The notes under the pieces were generated by a model. It did not search any database, had not been told where the DNA came from, and saw only the letters and a list, made by a program, of their open reading frames with translations. A stretch of 59,747 bases of DNA, from positions 1-59,747 of the forward strand of contig JAJPJV010000013.1 of assembly GCA_021324045.1 (NCBI GenBank), given 5' to 3'. A program made the translations under genes and the position numbers. Below are positions 11,880 through 58,507 of this stretch, one piece after another. Position 1 is the stretch's first letter; every line of letters starts with the position of its first letter. This DNA is from Actinomycetota bacterium. Lineage in GTDB: Bacteria; Actinomycetota; Acidimicrobiia; Acidimicrobiales; RAAP-2.

Positions 11880-12560
11880 GTGCGGGTCCGGCGGTCCTTT
11901 GCGTTCATCGACGTCTCAGGCTTCACGGCGCTCACCGAGACTGAAGGTGACGAGCGCGCGGTGAGCGTCGTGTCAGATTTCCGTTCACTTGTCCGAGGAA
12001 TCTGTTCGCGGCGTGCGGTACGCATCGCAAAATGGCTGGGCGACGGCGCCATGCTGGTCGGTGTCGACACGAAGCCACTCGTGTCTGCCACGCTCGAGAT
12101 GCAGATGCACACCCCTGCCCAGCCCCTGGGCATCCGTTGCGGCATCGCCGTCGGAGACGTGATCCTGCTGGAGGGTGACGACTACATCGGCCATGCGGTC
12201 AATGTCTCCGCCCGCTTGTGCGACGCCGCTTCCGGCGGGCAGATCCTCGCTCAGGCGGGCGTTGGCGACGAGCTTCCAAAGTGGGGCGCAGTGCTCGCCG
12301 AGAAGAGCATCCAGATCCGTGGCCTTGAACACCCGATGCAGGTTGCTGAGCTCGGCTTTCGGCACCTCGAGGGGCCGACCATGCTCGATCCCGTTTGCGG
12401 CATCCCACTGACGGCTTCGGTGGCTGACAGCATGACCCGCGATCACCTGGGGATGCTCGTCCTGTTCTGCTCAGAGAGCTGCCGGGACACCTGGGAGCGG
12501 CGCCCGACCCCAGCTCCCGACAGCCAGGGAAGCCTTCGGATCCCGCTCATCGGGTCCTGA
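11880..12560 (+). CDS. Class III nucleotidyl cyclase fused to a YHS-like metal domain
   Basis: A 226-residue soluble protein. Residues about 6-158 form a class III cyclase homology domain with metal-binding Asp11 (FIDVSGF) and Asp55 (LGDGAML), a Lys at 51 where adenylate cyclases bind the base, and the transition-state pair Asn108/Arg112 in NVSARL, so it may be active. Residues 169-208 read DPVCGIPLT, then LFCSESC, a YHS-like domain with Cys173, Cys197 and Cys201 that could bind a metal. The GTG at 11880 is the only sensible start; no good ribosome site is seen. The fusion suggests metal- or redox-dependent cyclic nucleotide output, which is an inference. Confidence 0.75.
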   Translation: MRVRRSFAFIDVSGFTALTETEGDERAVSVVSDFRSLVRGICSRRAVRIAKWLGDGAMLVGVDTKPLVSATLEMQMHTPAQPLGIRCGIAVGDVILLEGDDYIGHAVNVSARLCDAASGGQILAQAGVGDELPKWGAVLAEKSIQIRGLEHPMQVAELGFRHLEGPTMLDPVCGIPLTASVADSMTRDHLGMLVLFCSESCRDTWERRPTPAPDSQGSLRIPLIGS

Positions 12561-14575: not shown

Positions 14576-14597
14576 TAAACTACGAATCTGTAGGAGG
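14576..14597 (+). promoter_or_regulatory. -10 box, TAC-N6-GTA dyad and ribosome site of the BlaI-type gene
   Basis: TAAACT (14576-14581) is a plausible -10. The dyad CTAC-GAATCT-GTAG (14580-14593) overlaps its end and runs into the ribosome site AGGAGG (14592-14597). TAC/GTA half-sites are what BlaI/MecI/CopY-type repressors use, so autorepression is likely. A matching dyad lies at 16077-16090. Confidence 0.55.
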
Positions 14598-14606
14598 TCA
14601 TGGTTG

Positions 14607-14990
14607 GTGCCGAGACGCTTTGTCGCGGGACGCCGGGTCGGCGAACTGGAAAACGAGATCCTCGAAGTGCTCTGGTCTGCCGGTACCTGGCTGACGGGTC
14701 GTGAGGTCCTTGAGCGGCTCGGCGACGAGTCTCGGGCATACACAACGGTCATGACCGTGCTCGGCCGCCTCGTCGACAAGGCCCTCGTCGAACGCGTTGA
14801 GGAGGGAAAGACACACCGCTACCGTGCCGCCGGTGACCCCGACGAACTGACCGCTCAGGCAATCCGCGCTCTGCTCTCAGCGACCGCGCACCCCCGTGTG
14901 GCCCTCGCGCGCTTCATCGAGCACCTCGACGACCCGCAGCTTGTGGCCGAACTGGCTACAGCGGTCAAGCGCCGGCGTCGCAGACCATGA
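14607..14990 (+). CDS. blaI: BlaI/MecI-type transcriptional repressor
   Basis: A 127-residue winged-helix regulator of the penicillinase-repressor family. VGELENEILEVLWSAGTWLT opens the domain, and REVLERLGDESRAYTTVMTV with LGRLVDKALVERVEEGKTHR form the recognition helix and wing. The C-terminal helices would dimerise and contain the region cleaved in classic BlaI. Ribosome site AGGAGG lies 9 bases before GTG 14607; a TTG at 14604 is also possible. It overlaps by ATGA the M56 protease gene, the usual sensor partner. The likely target is its own dyad and the one at 16077. The signal need not be beta-lactam; here the downstream genes point to metal or thiol stress. Confidence 0.88.
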   Translation: MPRRFVAGRRVGELENEILEVLWSAGTWLTGREVLERLGDESRAYTTVMTVLGRLVDKALVERVEEGKTHRYRAAGDPDELTAQAIRALLSATAHPRVALARFIEHLDDPQLVAELATAVKRRRRRP

Positions 14991-15973
14991 GCATCGCAGC
15001 CGTCGGCCTTGGCTTCTTCGCTGTGCTCGTGGGTCTCGGGCTGCTTGCTGATTGTCGTACCGGCGTCTCCCCTCGGGTCGTGGCCAGCGCGCAGTTGGTC
15101 AGCCTTCTCGGTTGGGCCCTCGTGCCTGCAGTCTGGTTGGCGTGTCTTGGGAGCGCGCTTGGCTCGTGGCTCGGAGGGCTTCGGGCGGCGGGCGGGAACT
15201 GCCTGCTCGGGCTCGATCATGCGCAGTGGCAGCTCCTCGGCTACGCGCCAGGGGCGCTCGTCGTTGGTTTGCTCGTCTTTCACGGGGTCCGACATGCTGC
15301 TGTCGCCCGTCGGAGCGAGATGCGGGGGGTGGCCTTGTCGAGGTCGGTCCGGCGTCCGGCGAGTGTCGGCGATGTGTGGGTCGTGCCCTCAGCACACCCG
15401 GCTGCGTTTGCATCTGGACTGTGGCGCTGCCGAGCGGTGGTGACCTCCGGACTGCTTGCCTCGCTGGAGCCAGGAGAGCGTCAGGCGGTGTGTGAGCACG
15501 AGGCGGCGCACGTACGCCTTGGACATCCTCGCCTGCTTGTGTTGTGTGGAGCGATCGCCGCGGCCTATGGTTCTTTCCCTCCGGTGTGCCGGGCATGGGA
15601 CGTACTTCGCCGAGCGCTCGAGGCCGCGGCCGACGACGAGGCTGCACGTGTCGCCGGGACCGAGTCGCTGATGTCGGCGCTCGTCCATGTGGCCGCGCTG
15701 GTGGAGAACAAGGTCCACGCAGTGGCACCAGCATTCAGCGGTGCCGAGCATCTGCGCTGGCGGATTGCGCGTCTTGAAAATTCTCGCGAACCGACACCCT
15801 GGCCGACGGCACTCGTCGGCATAGCCACCATCGCTACCGGCGTTGCGATGGCACTCGTGGGCTGCACGCTCGTCGGTGCTCCGGTGAGCATTGTCGGCGT
15901 GATTGCTTGTCTCGGTGCTGTCGCATCGATCGGCCTTCGGCCCACTTGGGCCTGGGGACGCCATCGTACTTAG
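14987..15973 (+). CDS. M56 family membrane metalloprotease (BlaR1-like, no sensor domain)
   Basis: A 328-residue membrane protease. Hydrophobic segments occur near residues 2-20, 33-60, 87-100 and, at the C-terminus, 277-298 and 300-320. The zinc motif HEAAH is at 171-175 in the cytoplasmic domain, with a later Glu in AADDEAARVAG as likely third ligand. The penicillin-binding sensor of true BlaR1 is absent, so signal input must come through the membrane part or partner proteins. It starts by ATGA overlap with the repressor and presumably inactivates it by cleavage. Relation to the cysteine-rich downstream genes is by adjacency. Confidence 0.87.
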   Translation: MSIAAVGLGFFAVLVGLGLLADCRTGVSPRVVASAQLVSLLGWALVPAVWLACLGSALGSWLGGLRAAGGNCLLGLDHAQWQLLGYAPGALVVGLLVFHGVRHAAVARRSEMRGVALSRSVRRPASVGDVWVVPSAHPAAFASGLWRCRAVVTSGLLASLEPGERQAVCEHEAAHVRLGHPRLLVLCGAIAAAYGSFPPVCRAWDVLRRALEAAADDEAARVAGTESLMSALVHVAALVENKVHAVAPAFSGAEHLRWRIARLENSREPTPWPTALVGIATIATGVAMALVGCTLVGAPVSIVGVIACLGAVASIGLRPTWAWGRHRT

Positions 15974-16068
15974 GAGTGCAGGTAGCGCGACGGCCATCGC
16001 CCCAAGTCGCTGTGCCGCTGGTCGGCGTGTCGCTCGATTCTCCTCGGGGCTTGGCCGGACGCTGCGGC

Positions 16069-16096
16069 TTGTTCTCTTACGGAGATGTAGTAGATT
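16069..16096 (+). promoter_or_regulatory. Internal promoter with second TAC-N6-GTA dyad
   Basis: TTGTTC (16069-16074), a 16-base spacer and TAGATT (16091-16096) form a plausible promoter for the gene at 16167. The spacer holds TTAC-GGAGAT-GTAG (16077-16090), the same TAC-N6-GTA dyad as before the BlaI-type gene. A repressor bound here would block polymerase, linking the four-gene downstream unit to the upstream regulator. Confidence 0.5.
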
Positions 16097-16166
16097 TTGC
16101 TTCGTCGTGAGTGTGCTCGGATTCGGTGTGCTGAATCAGAGCTCATGCAAGGCGAAGGAGGCGCTG

Positions 16167-16469
16167 ATGGCTGTTTCCCAGGCCCAGGATCCAAACGCAC
16201 GTATGAGTGAGCGTGCACATAGGGAGCTGAGCTGGGACTCGCAGGTTCCCGCCGAGAGGAAGGGGCCTGGTACGGCCCTCTTGCTGCTCGTCCTGCCGGT
16301 CCTGTGCTGTGGCGGCCCGGCCATCGCGAGCGCCGCGGCCGCGAGCGCGGTCACCCTGGGCGTCGTGGGCGGGGTGATTGGCGCAGCCCTTTTGGGCGTG
16401 GTCGTCTTCTTGCTGCGGCACCGACACCGTGGCGCGTGTTGTGCGCCGGCGCAACAGGCTCGCCCATGA
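16167..16469 (+). CDS. Small membrane protein with two vicinal cysteine pairs (MerF-like layout)
   Basis: A 100-residue protein with about 35 polar residues, then two hydrophobic helices (about 37-57 and 61-83). Vicinal cysteines occur at 47-48 in the first helix (VLCCGGP) and at 91-92 after the second (ACCAP). This layout, two helices with one CC in the first and one near the C-terminus, is that of the mercury uptake protein MerF, though overall similarity cannot be judged by eye. The ATG at 16167 has GAAGGAGG 5 bases upstream. The stop overlaps the next gene. A role in passing a soft metal or a thiol across the membrane is an inference. Confidence 0.7.
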   Translation: MAVSQAQDPNARMSERAHRELSWDSQVPAERKGPGTALLLLVLPVLCCGGPAIASAAAASAVTLGVVGGVIGAALLGVVVFLLRHRHRGACCAPAQQARP

Positions 16470-17161
16470 TGAGTACTGCAAGTGTCTCACGCCTGCAAAC
16501 GGCACGGGCACTCGCGGAGGTGCTGGGCACGCGTGCACGTCTGATTGGCTTCTTGGTTGCCGCGGGTGTCGTGGCGTTCTTCTACACGCTGCTTCTACCC
16601 TTCGAGTACACCCAGCGCTTCGAGCTCGCGAACTGGGACTACCTGAACGCCGGCTTGCTCGTGTGGGCGATCGTGCTGGGGCTGGCGATGGGGCTTGTCC
16701 TCAGCGTCCAGCTCTACGCGATGCGCAAGCTTGCCGCGGCCCGGGCTGCAAGTGGCGCAGCGGGGGGCGTGGCCTTCGTCGCAAGCCTGCTCCCGAGCTT
16801 TCTGTGCTGCACCCCAATCATCCCCTCGCTACTCGCCTTCGTCGGGGTCTCAGGAGTGGGGCTGTACACGACGACGGGCACTCTGCAGCACTTCTTCGCT
16901 GTGCACCAGGACGAGTTCCTCGCAGCGAGTCTCGTGCTCCTCGCGTGCACCGCCTGGTGGGGATTGCGCAAGCTGGTGCGCTCGGAGTGCTGCACCGAGG
17001 ACGGTTGTGCCCTCGAGGCGCCGCTGAGCGAGATGCCTGAGGTCCGCTCCGTCAGCTGGCGCGAGGACGCCGAGCTCGCCGAGGTACCCGCGGCGCCAAC
17101 CCCGAGCGGCGACAGAGTCCCAGCACGAGGACCCGACCACGGCCATGGGGGCCGTCGATGA
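16466..17161 (+). CDS. Multi-spanning membrane protein with CCTP motif
   Basis: A 231-residue membrane protein not assigned to a named family. About five hydrophobic segments are seen near residues 25-45, 61-82, 98-118, 118-136 and 151-167. FLCCTPIIP places a cysteine pair at 114-115 next to prolines inside the membrane, as in MerT/MerF-type carriers, and the cytoplasmic tail has RSECCTEDGC (175-181). The C-terminal 50 residues are acidic and Pro-rich. ATGA overlaps link it to the genes on both sides, so it is made with the CC protein before and the thioredoxins after. It could deliver reductant or a metal through the membrane. Confidence 0.7.
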   Translation: MMSTASVSRLQTARALAEVLGTRARLIGFLVAAGVVAFFYTLLLPFEYTQRFELANWDYLNAGLLVWAIVLGLAMGLVLSVQLYAMRKLAAARAASGAAGGVAFVASLLPSFLCCTPIIPSLLAFVGVSGVGLYTTTGTLQHFFAVHQDEFLAASLVLLACTAWWGLRKLVRSECCTEDGCALEAPLSEMPEVRSVSWREDAELAEVPAAPTPSGDRVPARGPDHGHGGRR

Positions 17162-17793
17162 GCAAGGCATCGACGCGCCCGCGACCGACTGGCGCTGCCC
17201 GACGTCGAGCCGAAGCACGGCGACAGAAGCGCAACCGACTGCTGCTCGCCGCCAGTGTGACCATCGTCGTCGCGCTCGTCGCTGTGGTCATCGCCGTGCA
17301 CGTGGCGACGCGTCGCTCCAATCCTGCATCGCAAAGCGTGTCGCTCCCGGTTGGCACGACCGCCCCCAATGGCACGATCACCACCCTCGATGGCAGAACG
17401 GTGACCGTGGCAGCCTTGCGAGGCAAGCCGACCCTCATCTGGTTCGTGACCACGTGGTGCTCGTCGTGCCAGGCCGGCACCCAGGCGATGGCTCAGAACC
17501 TCGCAGCGCTCGCCGCCGACGGGGTACGCGTCGTCGAGGTCGAGAACTATGCCGACCTCGGTCAGTCGGGCCCTCCGATGGACACCTTCGCCAGGACGCT
17601 CGCTGGCCCTGCCGCTTCGAACCCGGACTGGACTTTCGGCGAGGCGTCAGCAGCCCTCACCCATACCTACAACCCCAGGGCTTACCTTGACCTCTATTAC
17701 CTGATCGACGCCGAGGGCAAGATCACCTACGTCAACAGCTCGCCTTCGTCGACCATGCCCCAGCTGCTCAGTGCCGCGAGGGCGCTCGCATGA
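17158..17793 (+). CDS. Membrane-anchored thioredoxin-like protein (TlpA/redoxin type), WCSSC
   Basis: A 211-residue protein. A very basic N-terminus (residues 7-26) precedes one transmembrane helix (about 29-50), giving an inside-N, outside-C anchor. The outer domain has APNGTITTLDGRTVTVAAL and PTLIWFVTTWCSSCQAG, with active-site Cys101 and Cys104. It is a paralogue of the next gene. Start by ATGA overlap. It should oxidise, reduce or shuttle thiols outside the membrane, perhaps serving the cysteine pairs of its neighbours. Confidence 0.82.
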   Translation: MSKASTRPRPTGAARRRAEARRQKRNRLLLAASVTIVVALVAVVIAVHVATRRSNPASQSVSLPVGTTAPNGTITTLDGRTVTVAALRGKPTLIWFVTTWCSSCQAGTQAMAQNLAALAADGVRVVEVENYADLGQSGPPMDTFARTLAGPAASNPDWTFGEASAALTHTYNPRAYLDLYYLIDAEGKITYVNSSPSSTMPQLLSAARALA

Positions 17794-18461
17794 GCGTCGA
17801 CGCTGCTCCTACGCGCACGGTCGCAGGACGCCGGCGTTGGCGCTGGGCCTTCGCCGCAGGCATTGTCATCGTGGCCGCAGGCCTTGGCGCCCACGCTTTG
17901 GCGGGCACCGGGAGCACGGCGACGAATCCCACCATCGAGCCTGGGGGGTCACCACCGGGCTCAGCTACTGGCGCACTGGCACCCAACGGCACCTTTACGA
18001 TTCCTTCAGGGACGACGGCGACGATCGATTCCCTGCGCGGGCGGCCGACGATGGTGAGGTTCGTGGCCGGTGGCTGCGCCAGCTGCGCCGCGAGCATCCC
18101 CGCAGTTGCCACCCATCTCGACCAGCTGAGAGCCGCGGGGCTCACGGTGCTCACCTTGGGCCTTTACGGCGACTTCGCCCCAGGGGTCCAGGGGGTGACC
18201 CAGCTGCTGAGCTTCGGGCAGGAGGCAACCCTCGGCAAGCCCGTCACGCGTCCAGGCTGGGAGTGGGGGATGGCGTCGAAGCGGCTTTCCCTCGCCTACG
18301 ATCCCGCCGGCATCCCCGATCTCTACGTGCTCATCGGACCTCGAGGACACATCCGCTACCGCAACAGCGTGCCGGTGTCGACGATGGGGACGCTGCTCTC
18401 TGTGGCCAAGCACCTCGAGACTCACGGCTCGCCCACCGCCGCGCTCAAATCGTGCTGCTGA
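17790..18461 (+). CDS. Membrane-anchored thioredoxin-like protein, GCASC, ending in CC
   Basis: A 223-residue protein with an Arg-rich start, one transmembrane helix (about 19-38), a Gly/Pro linker and a redoxin domain. The active site is GGCASC with Cys96 and Cys99; the Trp of the usual WCxxC is replaced by Gly. The last two residues are Cys-Cys, an unusual exposed thiol pair. The shared LAPNGTFT start and overall plan show duplication with the gene before. It ends the coupled unit that starts at 16167. The different site and CC tail suggest division of labour, for example one donor and one acceptor. Confidence 0.8.
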   Translation: MSVDAAPTRTVAGRRRWRWAFAAGIVIVAAGLGAHALAGTGSTATNPTIEPGGSPPGSATGALAPNGTFTIPSGTTATIDSLRGRPTMVRFVAGGCASCAASIPAVATHLDQLRAAGLTVLTLGLYGDFAPGVQGVTQLLSFGQEATLGKPVTRPGWEWGMASKRLSLAYDPAGIPDLYVLIGPRGHIRYRNSVPVSTMGTLLSVAKHLETHGSPTAALKSCC

Positions 18462-18677: not shown

Positions 18678-20537
18678 ATGTGGTCGATCATCAGGCGCGT
18701 ACCGGCGCCACGAGTCATCATGAACTTGCTTGCGACTGCCGCGCTGGCGACTGCTGTGCTGTCGGTGATCGTCAGTCGGGCCTCAGCGCTTCCAGCGTCG
18801 AGCGCACCGGTGACCGGTTACGACATCTCGTTTCCCCAGTGCGGGGGGCCGTACCCCAGTGGCCAGGACTTCGGCATCGTCGGGGTCAACGACGGGCTTC
18901 CGGGGACGTTGAACCCCTGCTTCGGACCTTCGTCCCAGTATCAGAGCGAGCTGTACTGGGCAGTGGAGACCTCTGCCGGACCGCAACCCACCGCATCGCT
19001 CTACGTCAACACCGACGATCCTGGCGATGTGTATCCCAACGGGACGCTGGTTCCCGACTGGCCCTCGTCTGGTTCAACCCCCTATGGCGACTGCACCGCC
19101 ACCACGGTGACGACCAGCGGCGGTCCAGCCCCTGCAGGTGCCAACTCACAGGCCTGTGCGTGGATGTACGGGGCCGAGCAGGCGAACGAGGACCTCTCGT
19201 GGCTGTCCCAAGCGGCTTCGGCCATCGATGCGCAGGCACCGCCGATCCCGGTCTCGGGCTCGGCGGGAGCGTACCCCTGGTGGCTCGACGTCGAGACGGC
19301 GAACCTGTGGCAGCCAGGTTCATCGGGGCAAGCGATGAACGTGGCGGTGCTCGAAGGGATGGTCGCGGCCCTCAACGCCGCCGGGGCGAGCAGTGTCGGC
19401 GTGTATTCCGCGGACTACGACTGGAGCGTGATTACCGGTGGGGTGACCTCGGGCCCGCTCGGGAGTCTTGCCGCCTGGGTCCCCGGAGCGGGGAGTCTCG
19501 CCGCCGCCGAGGCCAACTGCTCGGAGCCGTCGTTCAACGGTGGCCCAGTGGCCTTGGCGCAGTGGACCCAGACCTACGACGGTGACGTGGTTTGCGGCTC
19601 TTCCACCGCAGTCTCCAGCGTCACACCGCTGCCGACCCAGATCTACGGGACCGACGCCATCGGGACTTCCATCGCGATCTCCCAGCAGGAGTTCCCGAAC
19701 CCCGGCTCCGCCAGCGCCGTCGTCCTGGCCCGGTCAGACTTCTTCTCCGACGCCCTCGCGGGTGGCCCACTGGCGGCGGCGGTCCACGGACCGCTCCTCA
19801 TCACTCCCGGGGCTTCGCAGAGCTCGACCCTCGATCCTCGGGTCCAGGCTGAGATCCAGCGCGTCCTTCCCCAGGGCGGTACCGTCTACATCCTGGGTGG
19901 GCCGCTCGCGATCAGCCCGAATGTCGATCTGACGTTGGAGGGCCTGGGGTACAAGGTCGTCAGGGAGGCCGGAAGCGACGAGTACGCTACGGCTGTTGAC
20001 ATCGCGGAGGCACTCGGGAACCCCAAGACGATCTTCTTGGCAACCGGCCTGAATTTCTATGACGCGCTGTCCTCGGTGCCGGCGGCAATCGAGGAGGGCG
20101 CGGCGATCTTGTTGACCGACGGTTCCACCCAGGCTCCGGAGACCGCGGCCTATCTCGGCGAGCATCCCGGTGACACGGTCTATGCCATCGGTGGACCGGA
20201 GGCCGCTTACGGAGCGGATCCCTCGGCTATCCCGGTGTACGGCCAGGACCTTTTCGGGACCGCGGCGGCGGTGGCGACGAGGTTCTTCCCCAACGCCGCG
20301 ATGTACGGCGCGGCAACTGACGCCGACTTCCCCGACGCCCTCGGCGGTGGGGTATTCATGGCGACCGGCGGCCGTTTGGGTCCCATGCTCCTCGTCGATC
20401 CTGGCTCTGCCACGCTGGCGCCGAGCGTGGCCGCATACCTCGGGACGCTCGCACCGAACACGCCGGGGTTTGTCTTCGGAGGGCCGCTGGCTGTTCCTGG
20501 GCCGGTCCTCAGTGCCCTACAGGCGGCGGTGGGGTAG
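18678..20537 (+). CDS. Secreted glycoside-hydrolase-like protein with three CWB2 repeats
   Basis: A 619-residue exported protein. The signal peptide is basic (IIRRVPAPRV) then hydrophobic, with a likely cut after ASA near residue 38. Residues about 45-290 form a TIM-barrel-like domain of the GH25-like/DUF1906 kind (GYDISFPQCGGPYP, FGIVGVNDG, WWLDVETANLW). Residues about 310-615 hold three cell-wall-binding repeat 2 units, each with a [ST]-DFFSDALAGG, NFYDALSS or DFPDALGGG core. CWB2 units attach proteins non-covalently to the envelope. RBS GAGGGG precedes the ATG. A role in wall turnover or surface display is likely; catalytic activity is not certain. Confidence 0.8.
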   Translation: MWSIIRRVPAPRVIMNLLATAALATAVLSVIVSRASALPASSAPVTGYDISFPQCGGPYPSGQDFGIVGVNDGLPGTLNPCFGPSSQYQSELYWAVETSAGPQPTASLYVNTDDPGDVYPNGTLVPDWPSSGSTPYGDCTATTVTTSGGPAPAGANSQACAWMYGAEQANEDLSWLSQAASAIDAQAPPIPVSGSAGAYPWWLDVETANLWQPGSSGQAMNVAVLEGMVAALNAAGASSVGVYSADYDWSVITGGVTSGPLGSLAAWVPGAGSLAAAEANCSEPSFNGGPVALAQWTQTYDGDVVCGSSTAVSSVTPLPTQIYGTDAIGTSIAISQQEFPNPGSASAVVLARSDFFSDALAGGPLAAAVHGPLLITPGASQSSTLDPRVQAEIQRVLPQGGTVYILGGPLAISPNVDLTLEGLGYKVVREAGSDEYATAVDIAEALGNPKTIFLATGLNFYDALSSVPAAIEEGAAILLTDGSTQAPETAAYLGEHPGDTVYAIGGPEAAYGADPSAIPVYGQDLFGTAAAVATRFFPNAAMYGAATDADFPDALGGGVFMATGGRLGPMLLVDPGSATLAPSVAAYLGTLAPNTPGFVFGGPLAVPGPVLSALQAAVG

Positions 20538-57241: not shown

Positions 57242-58507
57242 GTGAAACGTCTCAGTCGAGTGGGCTCATTCAAGGCTGTGCTCGCGGTGGTGGCAGCGAT
57301 GAGCACCGGCGTTCTGAGCGGTGTCGTGACGACCGGAACGGCTTCCGCCGCCACGAGCTCGGCCGCCAAGGCCCCGATCACCTTGGGATACATTGGTGAC
57401 CTCACTGGGGTCGCGGCCTCCTCGTTCGCCGATGGCGCCGGGGCCGCTCGGGCCCGCATCGACGCTCAGAACGCGCGTGGCGGCGTGGACGGGCACAAGT
57501 TGAAGCTGATCGTCGTCGATGACCAATCGAGCCCGACCGAGGCTTTGACAGCAGCTCAGGACTTGATCTCAAGGGGCGTCTTCGGGATCATCGAGGATTC
57601 AGCCTTCATCTTCGGAGCCGATCACTACCTCGCTCAACAGGGCATTCCGGTGACTGGCGGAGGCTTCGACGGTCCGGAATGGGGCACGCAGCCCTTCTCG
57701 AACTTCTTCACCTTCACGCCTGCGACTTCCTCGACCTTCGGCGGCAAGTACTACACCTACACCTACACCGCGAAGTTCCTCAGGGACATCGGTGTCACGA
57801 GGCTGGCGGGGCTTGCCTACACGACCAGCTCTTCGACGGCTTCGATCCACGAGATGTTCGACGAGGCGCACGACCTCGGCGGTCCCCAGGAGTGCTACTC
57901 GAACTACTCGGTGCCCTTCGGCACAGCCGATTTCACGGCTGACGTGCTGCAGATCAAAAGCTCGCACTGCAACGGGGTCGTGGGCTCCTTCGTCGACACC
58001 TCCGACGTCGCCATGGCCCAAGCGATCAAGAACGCGGGGTTGGATGCGAAACAGCTGTACTTCACCGGTTACGACAACGACGTCACCGACAACCCTGGCG
58101 CGGCCAGGGCGATGGATGGCGCGTACGTGCAATCGCCATACAACTTCACGACCCCCAATGCCGCGACGCGCCAGATGCTGGCGACGCTCAAGAAATACGA
58201 CCACTTCAGCGGGGTTCCCGACATCGGCATCTACGACGCGTATTTGGCGACTGACCTCATGATCTACGGTCTGGAGCACGCAGGAAAGAACCCGACGCGT
58301 GCCTCGTTCATCAAGAACCTGCGCAGCGTCGGTTCGTACAACGACGGGGGCATCCTGCCCTCACCGGTGACCTTCAAGCACTTCGGGACGGTCCAGATGC
58401 TGCCGAAGACGTTCTGCAATTACTTTGTGCAGTTGCAGGGCACGACGTGGCACGTCTACCAGAATCGCCCGATCTGTGGCACCTTGATCCCGTCACCGAG
58501 CGCCTAA
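57242..58507 (+). CDS. ABC transporter substrate-binding protein (Peripla_BP_6/LivK type)
   Basis: A 421-residue exported binding protein, paralogue of the one at 4269. Signal: basic KRLSRVGSFK, hydrophobic AVLAVVAAMSTGVLSGVV, cut near ASA (about residues 31-33). The mature domain begins ITLGYIGDLTGVAASSF. Paired cysteines occur near ECYSNYS/HCNGV and at the C-terminus (TFCNYF, ICGT). GTG 57242 follows GGGGAGGA. It has no permease next to it; the cognate system may be the Liv set at 8084-11803. Confidence 0.9.
   Translation: MKRLSRVGSFKAVLAVVAAMSTGVLSGVVTTGTASAATSSAAKAPITLGYIGDLTGVAASSFADGAGAARARIDAQNARGGVDGHKLKLIVVDDQSSPTEALTAAQDLISRGVFGIIEDSAFIFGADHYLAQQGIPVTGGGFDGPEWGTQPFSNFFTFTPATSSTFGGKYYTYTYTAKFLRDIGVTRLAGLAYTTSSSTASIHEMFDEAHDLGGPQECYSNYSVPFGTADFTADVLQIKSSHCNGVVGSFVDTSDVAMAQAIKNAGLDAKQLYFTGYDNDVTDNPGAARAMDGAYVQSPYNFTTPNAATRQMLATLKKYDHFSGVPDIGIYDAYLATDLMIYGLEHAGKNPTRASFIKNLRSVGSYNDGGILPSPVTFKHFGTVQMLPKTFCNYFVQLQGTTWHVYQNRPICGTLIPSPSA

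Follow-up and report, generated by a model that had tools for sequence, protein, structure and literature searches.

What would a BlaI-type repressor and a BlaR1-like membrane protease control in a bacterium where the genes beside them encode cysteine-pair membrane proteins and thioredoxins? This question is raised by six genes in a 59,747-nucleotide stretch of DNA from an acid-dwelling Actinomycetota bacterium (contig JAJPJV010000013.1, positions 1 to 59,747, the whole of which we call the window), in which the repressor and protease genes are followed by those for two membrane proteins with vicinal cysteine pairs, CC1 and CC2, and two membrane-anchored thioredoxins, TRX1 and TRX2. Our analysis indicates that the set is probably an inducible Hg(II)-uptake module feeding MerA, in which envelope thioredoxins stand in for MerP and the BlaI/M56 pair for MerR or ArsR. 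Mercury as the substrate is well supported, while the function of the thioredoxins and the role of M56 as a mercury sensor are what we infer. The genes and the two predicted operators are the following:

14604-14990, plus strand: BlaI/CopY-type repressor, matching PF03965, with its start at TTG 14604 or GTG 14607
14987-15973, plus strand: M56-type (BlaR1-like) membrane metalloprotease without a beta-lactam sensor domain
16167-16469, plus strand: CC1, two-helix membrane protein with a CC in helix 1 and a CC after helix 2, in a MerF-like layout
16466-17161, plus strand: CC2, four- to five-helix membrane protein with a MerT-like C-terminal half (C114-C115, C175/C181)
17158-17793, plus strand: TRX1, N-terminally anchored ResA/TlpA-like thioredoxin with WCSSC
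17790-18461, plus strand: TRX2, N-terminally anchored thioredoxin-like protein with GCASC and a C-terminal CC
14580-14593: predicted operator 1, CTACGAATCTGTAG, an exact palindrome overlapping the blaI ribosome-binding site
16077-16093: predicted operator 2, TTACGGAGATGTAGTAG, ahead of the CC1 operon

The tight six-gene set that a sequence-only reading of this DNA had described at 14604-18461 is present on the plus strand, with 4-base overlaps (ATGA) in the neighbour pairs BlaI/M56, CC1/CC2, CC2/TRX1 and TRX1/TRX2, and the coordinates bear out the linkage of the last four genes. A gap of 193 bases separates M56 from CC1, and for BlaI the GTG start (14607-14990) and the in-frame TTG at 14604 are equally likely.

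Evidence on the substrate comes from the mercury genes that accompany the set. MerA exceeds its curated cut-off in 20 of the 22 CC2-bearing genomes, and in 21 of 23 when the more distant genome G271 is included; the two misses are G199, whose merA is in pieces, including a 379-bit one located on the same contig as the set, and G212, whose highest-scoring match reaches 349 bits. The background is much lower, with MerA in 20 of 198 genomes of the class, two of which carry CC2, and hence in 18 of the 196 where CC2 was not found (21/23 versus 18/196, Fisher p = 1.3e-16). In seven of the 22 genomes, moreover, a MerA with C-terminal SCCAA is encoded no more than about 1 kb from the set, just before blaI in L042, L054 and L055, just before CC1 in L051 and G036, and just after TRX2 on the other strand in L043 and L050. 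MerB scores above its cut-off in L037 and L043, MerR-like regulators, all below the MerR cut-off, occur in L043, L049 and L051, and the gene order in G036 is ArsR-MerA-CC1-CC2-TRX1, followed by the contig end. The window genome itself has an ArsR gene about 1 kb from its merA, whose product is 80-88% identical to the ArsR of L037, L040, L044, L045 and L054 (L044 and L045 are duplicates) and 56% identical to that of the mer cluster of Mycobacterium marinum pMM23. Outside the phylum, two acidophile plasmids (Acidiphilium multivorum pACMV1 and Acidithiobacillus ferrooxidans CP084175) have merA, redoxin and CC2 genes in that order, preceded by a MerR-type regulator gene in divergent orientation. 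The two MerA proteins reach 560 and 579 bits, and the regulators 118 and 117 bits for MerR (cut-off 151), the first scoring slightly higher for CueR (119.7); TRX1 finds its homologues there, in a search of the plasmid collection, at E-values of 1e-17 (pACMV1) and 6e-18 (CP084175), and CC2, in a ten-sequence comparison, at 4e-12 and 2e-9, respectively. The sequence-only reading had proposed a thiol or soft-metal system for Hg, Cu, As or similar, and neighbourhood together with genome co-occurrence favours mercury among these candidates.

A divergent, MerA-like flavoprotein disulphide reductase with a CAYWAC active site lies on the minus strand between M56 and the CC operon in L036, L037, L043 and L055. 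We rejected it as MerA, since the L037 copy, at 330 bits, stays below the cut-off of 454, and SCC is missing from the C-terminus of the copies in L037, L043 and L055.

The cysteine layout of the two membrane proteins points in the same direction. CC1 has 100 residues with cysteine pairs at 47-48 and 91-92, exactly as first read, and two helices, with one pair in helix 1 and the other near the C-terminus; the latter, which follows basic residues, should lie inside, and is replaced by a single cysteine in 2 of 20 rows (L035, L095). Profile comparison with hhalign, controlled by 100 column shuffles and one reversed profile, gave CC1 a score of 40.6 against four MerF, exceeding the best shuffle (23.1) and the reversed profile (22.9) and in keeping with the MerF-like layout proposed for it, and CC1 is also related to a pMM23 protein annotated 'Mercuric transporter MerT' (probability 97%). 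CC2, with 231 residues, four to five helices and cysteines 114, 115, 161, 175, 176 and 181, scored 32.9 against five MerT (shuffles at most 21.2, reversed 19.8) and 25.3 against MerF (shuffles 19.4, reversed 15.0). In the CC2-MerT alignment (probability 65%), C114-C115 pair with C24-C25 and C175/C181 with C76/C82 of MerT; C114, C115 and C175 are present in 23/23 CC2 rows and C181 in 21/21 actinobacterial rows. The pair at 114-115 thus stands as first described, whereas the conserved pair, which would face the cytosol, is C175/C181, with a spacing of 6, and not 175-176.

Neither CC1 nor CC2 has a Pfam or NCBIfam family above cut-off. There is no MerF model among the matches of the window CC1, nor is MerF among the matches listed for the 20 CC1 rows (25 of 36 families), at most one of which could match it in Pfam. 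Profile searches for solved-structure relatives of CC1 and CC2 returned nothing meaningful, and a fold search with the CC2 model (mean predicted local distance difference test score, pLDDT, 69) returned nothing below E 3. CC2 as a MerH homologue was unsupported (probability 0.4%). By Pfam, then, CC1 and CC2 are not members of the MerT and MerF families, and from their cysteines and profiles they likely work like them.

The gene set is not a product of chance, because it is conserved in relatives. Scanning genome contigs for CC2 gave 24 loci, of which one belongs to the cultured Aciditerrimonas ferrireducens and the other 23 to metagenome bins carrying Actinomycetes or Actinobacteria in their titles. 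With iterated profiles, blaI-M56 was found upstream in 17 of these loci and all six genes in 10, and two redoxins were present in 19, one in L038, L039, L042 and L057, and none in L036, whose contig ends with CC2; contig edges prevent a judgement on blaI-M56 in L040, L056 and L058. Order varies in places: in L057 it is broken, with TRX1 and a second CC1 divergent ahead of blaI, and in L036, L037, L041, L043 and L055 M56 is separated from CC1 by other genes. Among 396 genomes sampled from the phylum, CC2 was found in G000, in G271, which belongs to another family, and in G031 as a fragment scoring 18.9 bits. The order in G271 is BlaI, M56, CC1, CC2, TRX1, TRX2, as in the window, so that the joint conservation on which the sequence-only reading had staked its proposal is found in 10 of the 24 loci and in this distant genome.

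Both anchored thioredoxins of that reading, with WCSSC (TRX1, cysteines 101 and 104) and GCASC (TRX2, cysteines 96 and 99), are present, and the terminal CC of TRX2 (222-223) exists in the window but in only 6 of 16 homologues. The CxxC is kept in 20/20 TRX1 rows and 16/16 TRX2 rows; in Pfam, TRX1 is above cut-off for Redoxin and AhpC-TSA and TRX2 is below cut-off. Each protein has one predicted N-terminal helix with a basic stretch ahead of it, and the CxxC domains should therefore lie outside. Roles as a MerP-like carrier or as a reductase both fit. No MerP exceeded the cut-off in the 23 CC2 genomes, 17 of which have weaker matches; many of these fall in long frames, a pattern to be expected if they are the HMA domains of P-type ATPases.

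The predicted control of the set rests on the repressor and its operators. Judged by sequence, BlaI is a PF03965 repressor (75.2 bits in Pfam, cut-off 22.6), the sole match to this family in the genome, with a predicted palindromic operator at its own promoter. The motif TAC-N6-GTA occurs at exactly two sites in the window, at 14581, inside the perfect palindrome across the blaI ribosome-binding site, and at 16078, in the gap between M56 and CC1. Among 26 sources, counted after removal of the duplicates L039 and L045 (the same match as L038 and L044, and retained in the 24-locus counts), 17 sites fell in 17.9 kb of DNA ahead of blaI and CC1 (ahead of CC2 in L046 and L047), versus 10 in 305.6 kb elsewhere; at the background rate, 0.59 sites would be expected in the upstream DNA. 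The operator consensus, drawn by eye, is CTACGAAnnCGTAGGAG ahead of blaI and CTACGAATnTGTAGTAG ahead of CC1, and a matrix trained without the window sites gave operator 1 21.1 bits, operator 2 18.9 bits and the next-best non-overlapping place in the window 13.4 bits. BlaI-type operators stand ahead of blaI and CC1 in most blaI-bearing relatives. When all sites were used for training, the matrix gave at least 16 bits ahead of CC1 in L048 (18.3) and L049 (17.2), two loci that the exact-motif scan had missed and that do not contain blaI; L048 could be controlled in trans, as it is in the same bin as the blaI-bearing L045. No place of at least 16 bits was found by the matrix scan ahead of CC1 or CC2 in L035, L046, L047, L051 and G036; of these loci, L046 and L047 encode a BlaI that is divergent (35% identity), in L051 a gene of the MerR family is oriented divergently from merA, and in G036 merA is preceded by an ArsR gene. 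The matrix also gives at least 16 bits at places with no known role, namely L096 2876 (17.7) and L053 1577 (22.7), the latter a strong operator-like site outside known promoters. TACNNNNNNGTAG had 40 strand matches in G000 versus 156 for the backward control. Elsewhere in the window genome, contig C11 carries at 57857-57893 (L013-L016) the tandem palindromes CTACCATTCGGTAG and CTACCATTTGGTAG, 23 bases apart.

The protease is without a beta-lactam sensor, as the sequence-only reading had held: with 328 residues it ends after its last helix, the penicillin-binding sensor domain is absent, and the match of its model to BlaR1 is confined to the membrane-protease part. By sequence it is nearer to the M48 model of Pfam (36.8 bits, cut-off 20.3) than to that of M56 (PF05569, 15.8 bits, below the cut-off of 31), and it carries HEAAH at 171-175 and E212, of which H171, E172, H175 and E212 are invariant in 16 rows. 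The predicted structure (mean pLDDT 75.6) matched BlaR1 best (8ext_A, Z 11.3, root-mean-square deviation 5.1 A over 216 residues), the next other protein having a Z of 9.1; Foldseek alone gave no match at E of 0.001 or less, with ZMPSTE24 in the top row (E 0.024) and BlaR1 at rank 4 (E 0.22). As modelled, the protein has the BlaR1 membrane-protease fold with HExxH...E. Cysteines C53, C293 and C308 are each kept in 14/16 rows and C72 in 16/16 (C293 and C308 were read by eye), and in the 29 proteins of the class taken as controls, about 10 of them by eye M48 proteins of the ordinary HtpX-like kind, one has a cysteine near C53 and only two have Cys in the column aligned to C72.

Taken together, these features suggest how the module would work. 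M56 would sense Hg(II) outside the membrane, perhaps via its conserved outer-half cysteines, and would cleave BlaI, by analogy with BlaR1, which is reported to cleave BlaI directly (PMC9834060). BlaI would then leave both predicted palindromes, allowing expression of its own operon and of CC1-CC2-TRX1-TRX2. TRX1 and TRX2 would capture Hg(II) by their CxxC, in MerP's place, or else keep the membrane CC pairs reduced, and Hg(II), to go by the cysteine layout and the merA linkage, would pass to the helix CC pairs of CC2 and CC1, on to the cytosolic pairs (C175/C181 and C91-C92) and to MerA, which would yield Hg(0). Sensing by M56 is the weakest step of this scheme, and that Hg(II) triggers the cleavage is only what we infer.

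Several observations weigh against the mercury-uptake reading. The MerA of the window genome (563.6 bits) is on another contig (C41), so that the link is by genome only, and in most CC2 genomes merA does not adjoin the set. Habitat may inflate the association, as many relatives seem to come from acid, mine or metal-rich sites, and in the class sample alone it amounts to 2/2 versus 18/196 (p = 0.0097); the physical linkage of merA is harder to explain away by habitat than the co-occurrence. PF02411 (MerT) is listed for 0/23 CC2 rows at E up to 1 (8 families in all), the CC2 match in the plasmid collection is modest (E 9e-5 for pACMV1, 0.08 for CP084175), and CC1 was rejected as a MerT, its score of 26.5 falling short of the 28.6 obtained with the reversed profile. 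The set is also incomplete in places: L035, L048, L049 and L051 are without blaI-M56 over at least 2.8 kb of covered upstream DNA, L038, L039 and L042 show a single redoxin, and no CC1 was found in four loci, L046, L047, L056 and L058, the last two of which begin inside CC2. As to the proposed sensor, a cysteine in the C72 loop is by eye common in true M56 controls, which weakens C72 as a residue specific to this unit. Finally, CsoR-like genes (by eye) or CopA genes occur in 5 of the 24 loci (L039, L046, L047, L056 and L058; CopA domains were checked in L056 only).

This last observation speaks for a copper system, or one for silver or arsenic, in which the CC proteins and Sco/ResA-like redoxins would carry Cu(I) and the merA association would reflect metal-rich habitats and shared islands. 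TRX1 has a weak SCO1 match (18.0 bits versus a cut-off of 22.8), and the relatives of BlaI include the copper repressor CopY, to which it has a weak match (32 bits, cut-off 122). An ArsP-type permease, fused to a YHS domain, is encoded at 305-1807 in L047, upstream of the divergent blaI-M56-CC2 set, and counts in favour of this reading. We nevertheless regard this explanation as unlikely, given that MerA or MerB exceeds its cut-off in 7 of the 24 loci, that mercury genes are found in the most compact operons (G036 and the two plasmids), also outside the phylum, and that the cysteine layout fits MerF and MerT.

Alternatively, CC1 and CC2 could pass electrons rather than metal, as parts of a thiol-disulphide relay in the membrane. 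Like DsbD/CcdA-TlpA, it would serve envelope thiols, repairing those that have become oxidised or mercurated. Such a relay would account for the presence of at least one CxxC redoxin in 23 of the 24 loci and of two in 19 (the exception, L036, stops at a contig end), and it agrees with ResA being the best solved relative of TRX1 and with thioredoxins being reported, in the title of a cited reference, to matter for the Hg(II) resistance of Thermus thermophilus. The vicinal CC pairs are nonetheless in the MerF/MerT layout, no DsbD/CcdA family is among the Pfam and NCBIfam matches listed for CC1 and CC2, and merA is linked to the set, and we give the relay little credence. A response to antibiotics or cell-wall stress like that of classical BlaI/BlaR1 is highly improbable, the repressor and protease families alone speaking for it, since there is no sensor domain and, in agreement with the sequence-only reading, no beta-lactamase in the set, and what is conserved alongside the pair is CC proteins and redoxins, in some cases with mer genes close by.

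Among described systems, the MerT/MerP/MerF set (e.g. merTPCADE of R100) shares with the window small membrane proteins that have a helix CC and a predicted cytosolic cysteine pair, and it is linked to MerA, which adjoins the related sets in 7 of 22 CC2 genomes and in both plasmids. It differs in that CC2, with 231 residues, has extra N-terminal helices, in contrast to the three helices and about 116 residues of MerT, and in that the window set has redoxins instead of MerP and BlaI/M56 instead of MerR. The pMM23 mer cluster (ArsR, merA, merH, merB and 'MerT') has the relative of CC1, but no convincing match to CC2, the redoxins, BlaI or M56; the lowest E-values in pMM23 were 0.002, for a TRX2 match that spans 69 residues and lies far from mer, and 0.008, for a BlaI match of 19 residues. 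BlaI-BlaR1 and MecI-MecR1 of Staphylococcus aureus likewise combine a repressor with a membrane HExxH...E protease and a palindrome at the start region of the repressor, but the window set is without the penicillin-binding sensor, beta-lactamase or PBP2a, and its type of M56 carries C53, C293 and C308, conserved in 14/16 relatives. On pACMV1 and CP084175, homologues of TRX1 and CC2 directly follow merA, with a MerR-type regulator, one redoxin and no BlaI/M56 in the annotated stretch.

The passages of PMC3466566 and PMC8261052 on mer genes name MerT, MerP, MerC, MerE, MerF and MerG, with MerH in one of the papers, and as regulators MerR, MerD and, in one of them, ArsR. The words 'BlaI' and 'redoxin' are absent from PMC8261052, where 'thioredoxin' is only in the reference list, and 'thioredoxin' is absent from PMC3466566; the passages on mercury genes of acidophiles in PMC9449456 and PMC7760498 mention no such set. 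Literature searches that combined mercury with BlaI/M56 or with redoxins turned up no system of this kind, in a coverage that mostly excluded subscription journals, and so, within it, the composition remains undescribed, as had been supposed. More tentatively than the uptake function itself, the set could represent a distinct class of mercury system, with thioredoxin carriers for MerP and an outward-looking M56 Hg(II) receptor that destroys BlaI and, unlike the cytosolic MerR and ArsR, would sense mercury before it enters.

Some neighbouring genes deserve mention. A conserved, probably anchored protein follows TRX2 in L037 (8163-8816), L044 (8141-8818), L045, L047, L050, L051 and L058, though not in the window; its five full-length copies have 215-227 residues and end in PCG plus one residue, the L044 copy has no Pfam or NCBIfam match, and a 15-bit operator-like site lies ahead of the L037 copy. 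Directly downstream of TRX2 in the window, 18678-20537 encodes three CWB2 cell-wall-binding repeats and is probably unrelated to the set. At 11880-12560 a weak nucleotide-cyclase domain, all that Pfam reports there, is followed by a cysteine-rich C-terminal tail (VCG...FCSESC), in which, by eye, there is a resemblance to the YHS/TRASH metal-binding motif.

If the mercury-uptake reading is true, the set would be a mercury-uptake route for acidophilic actinobacteria and, via its sister module, for acidophilic proteobacteria. Mercury cycling in acid mine water may then be under-read from surveys of MerT and MerP, because the annotation of the plasmid copies goes no further than hypothetical protein and redoxin. 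The set also offers a case, open to experiment, in which a BlaI/M56 switch would respond to a metal instead of an antibiotic and a receptor could detect Hg(II) on the outer side of the membrane.

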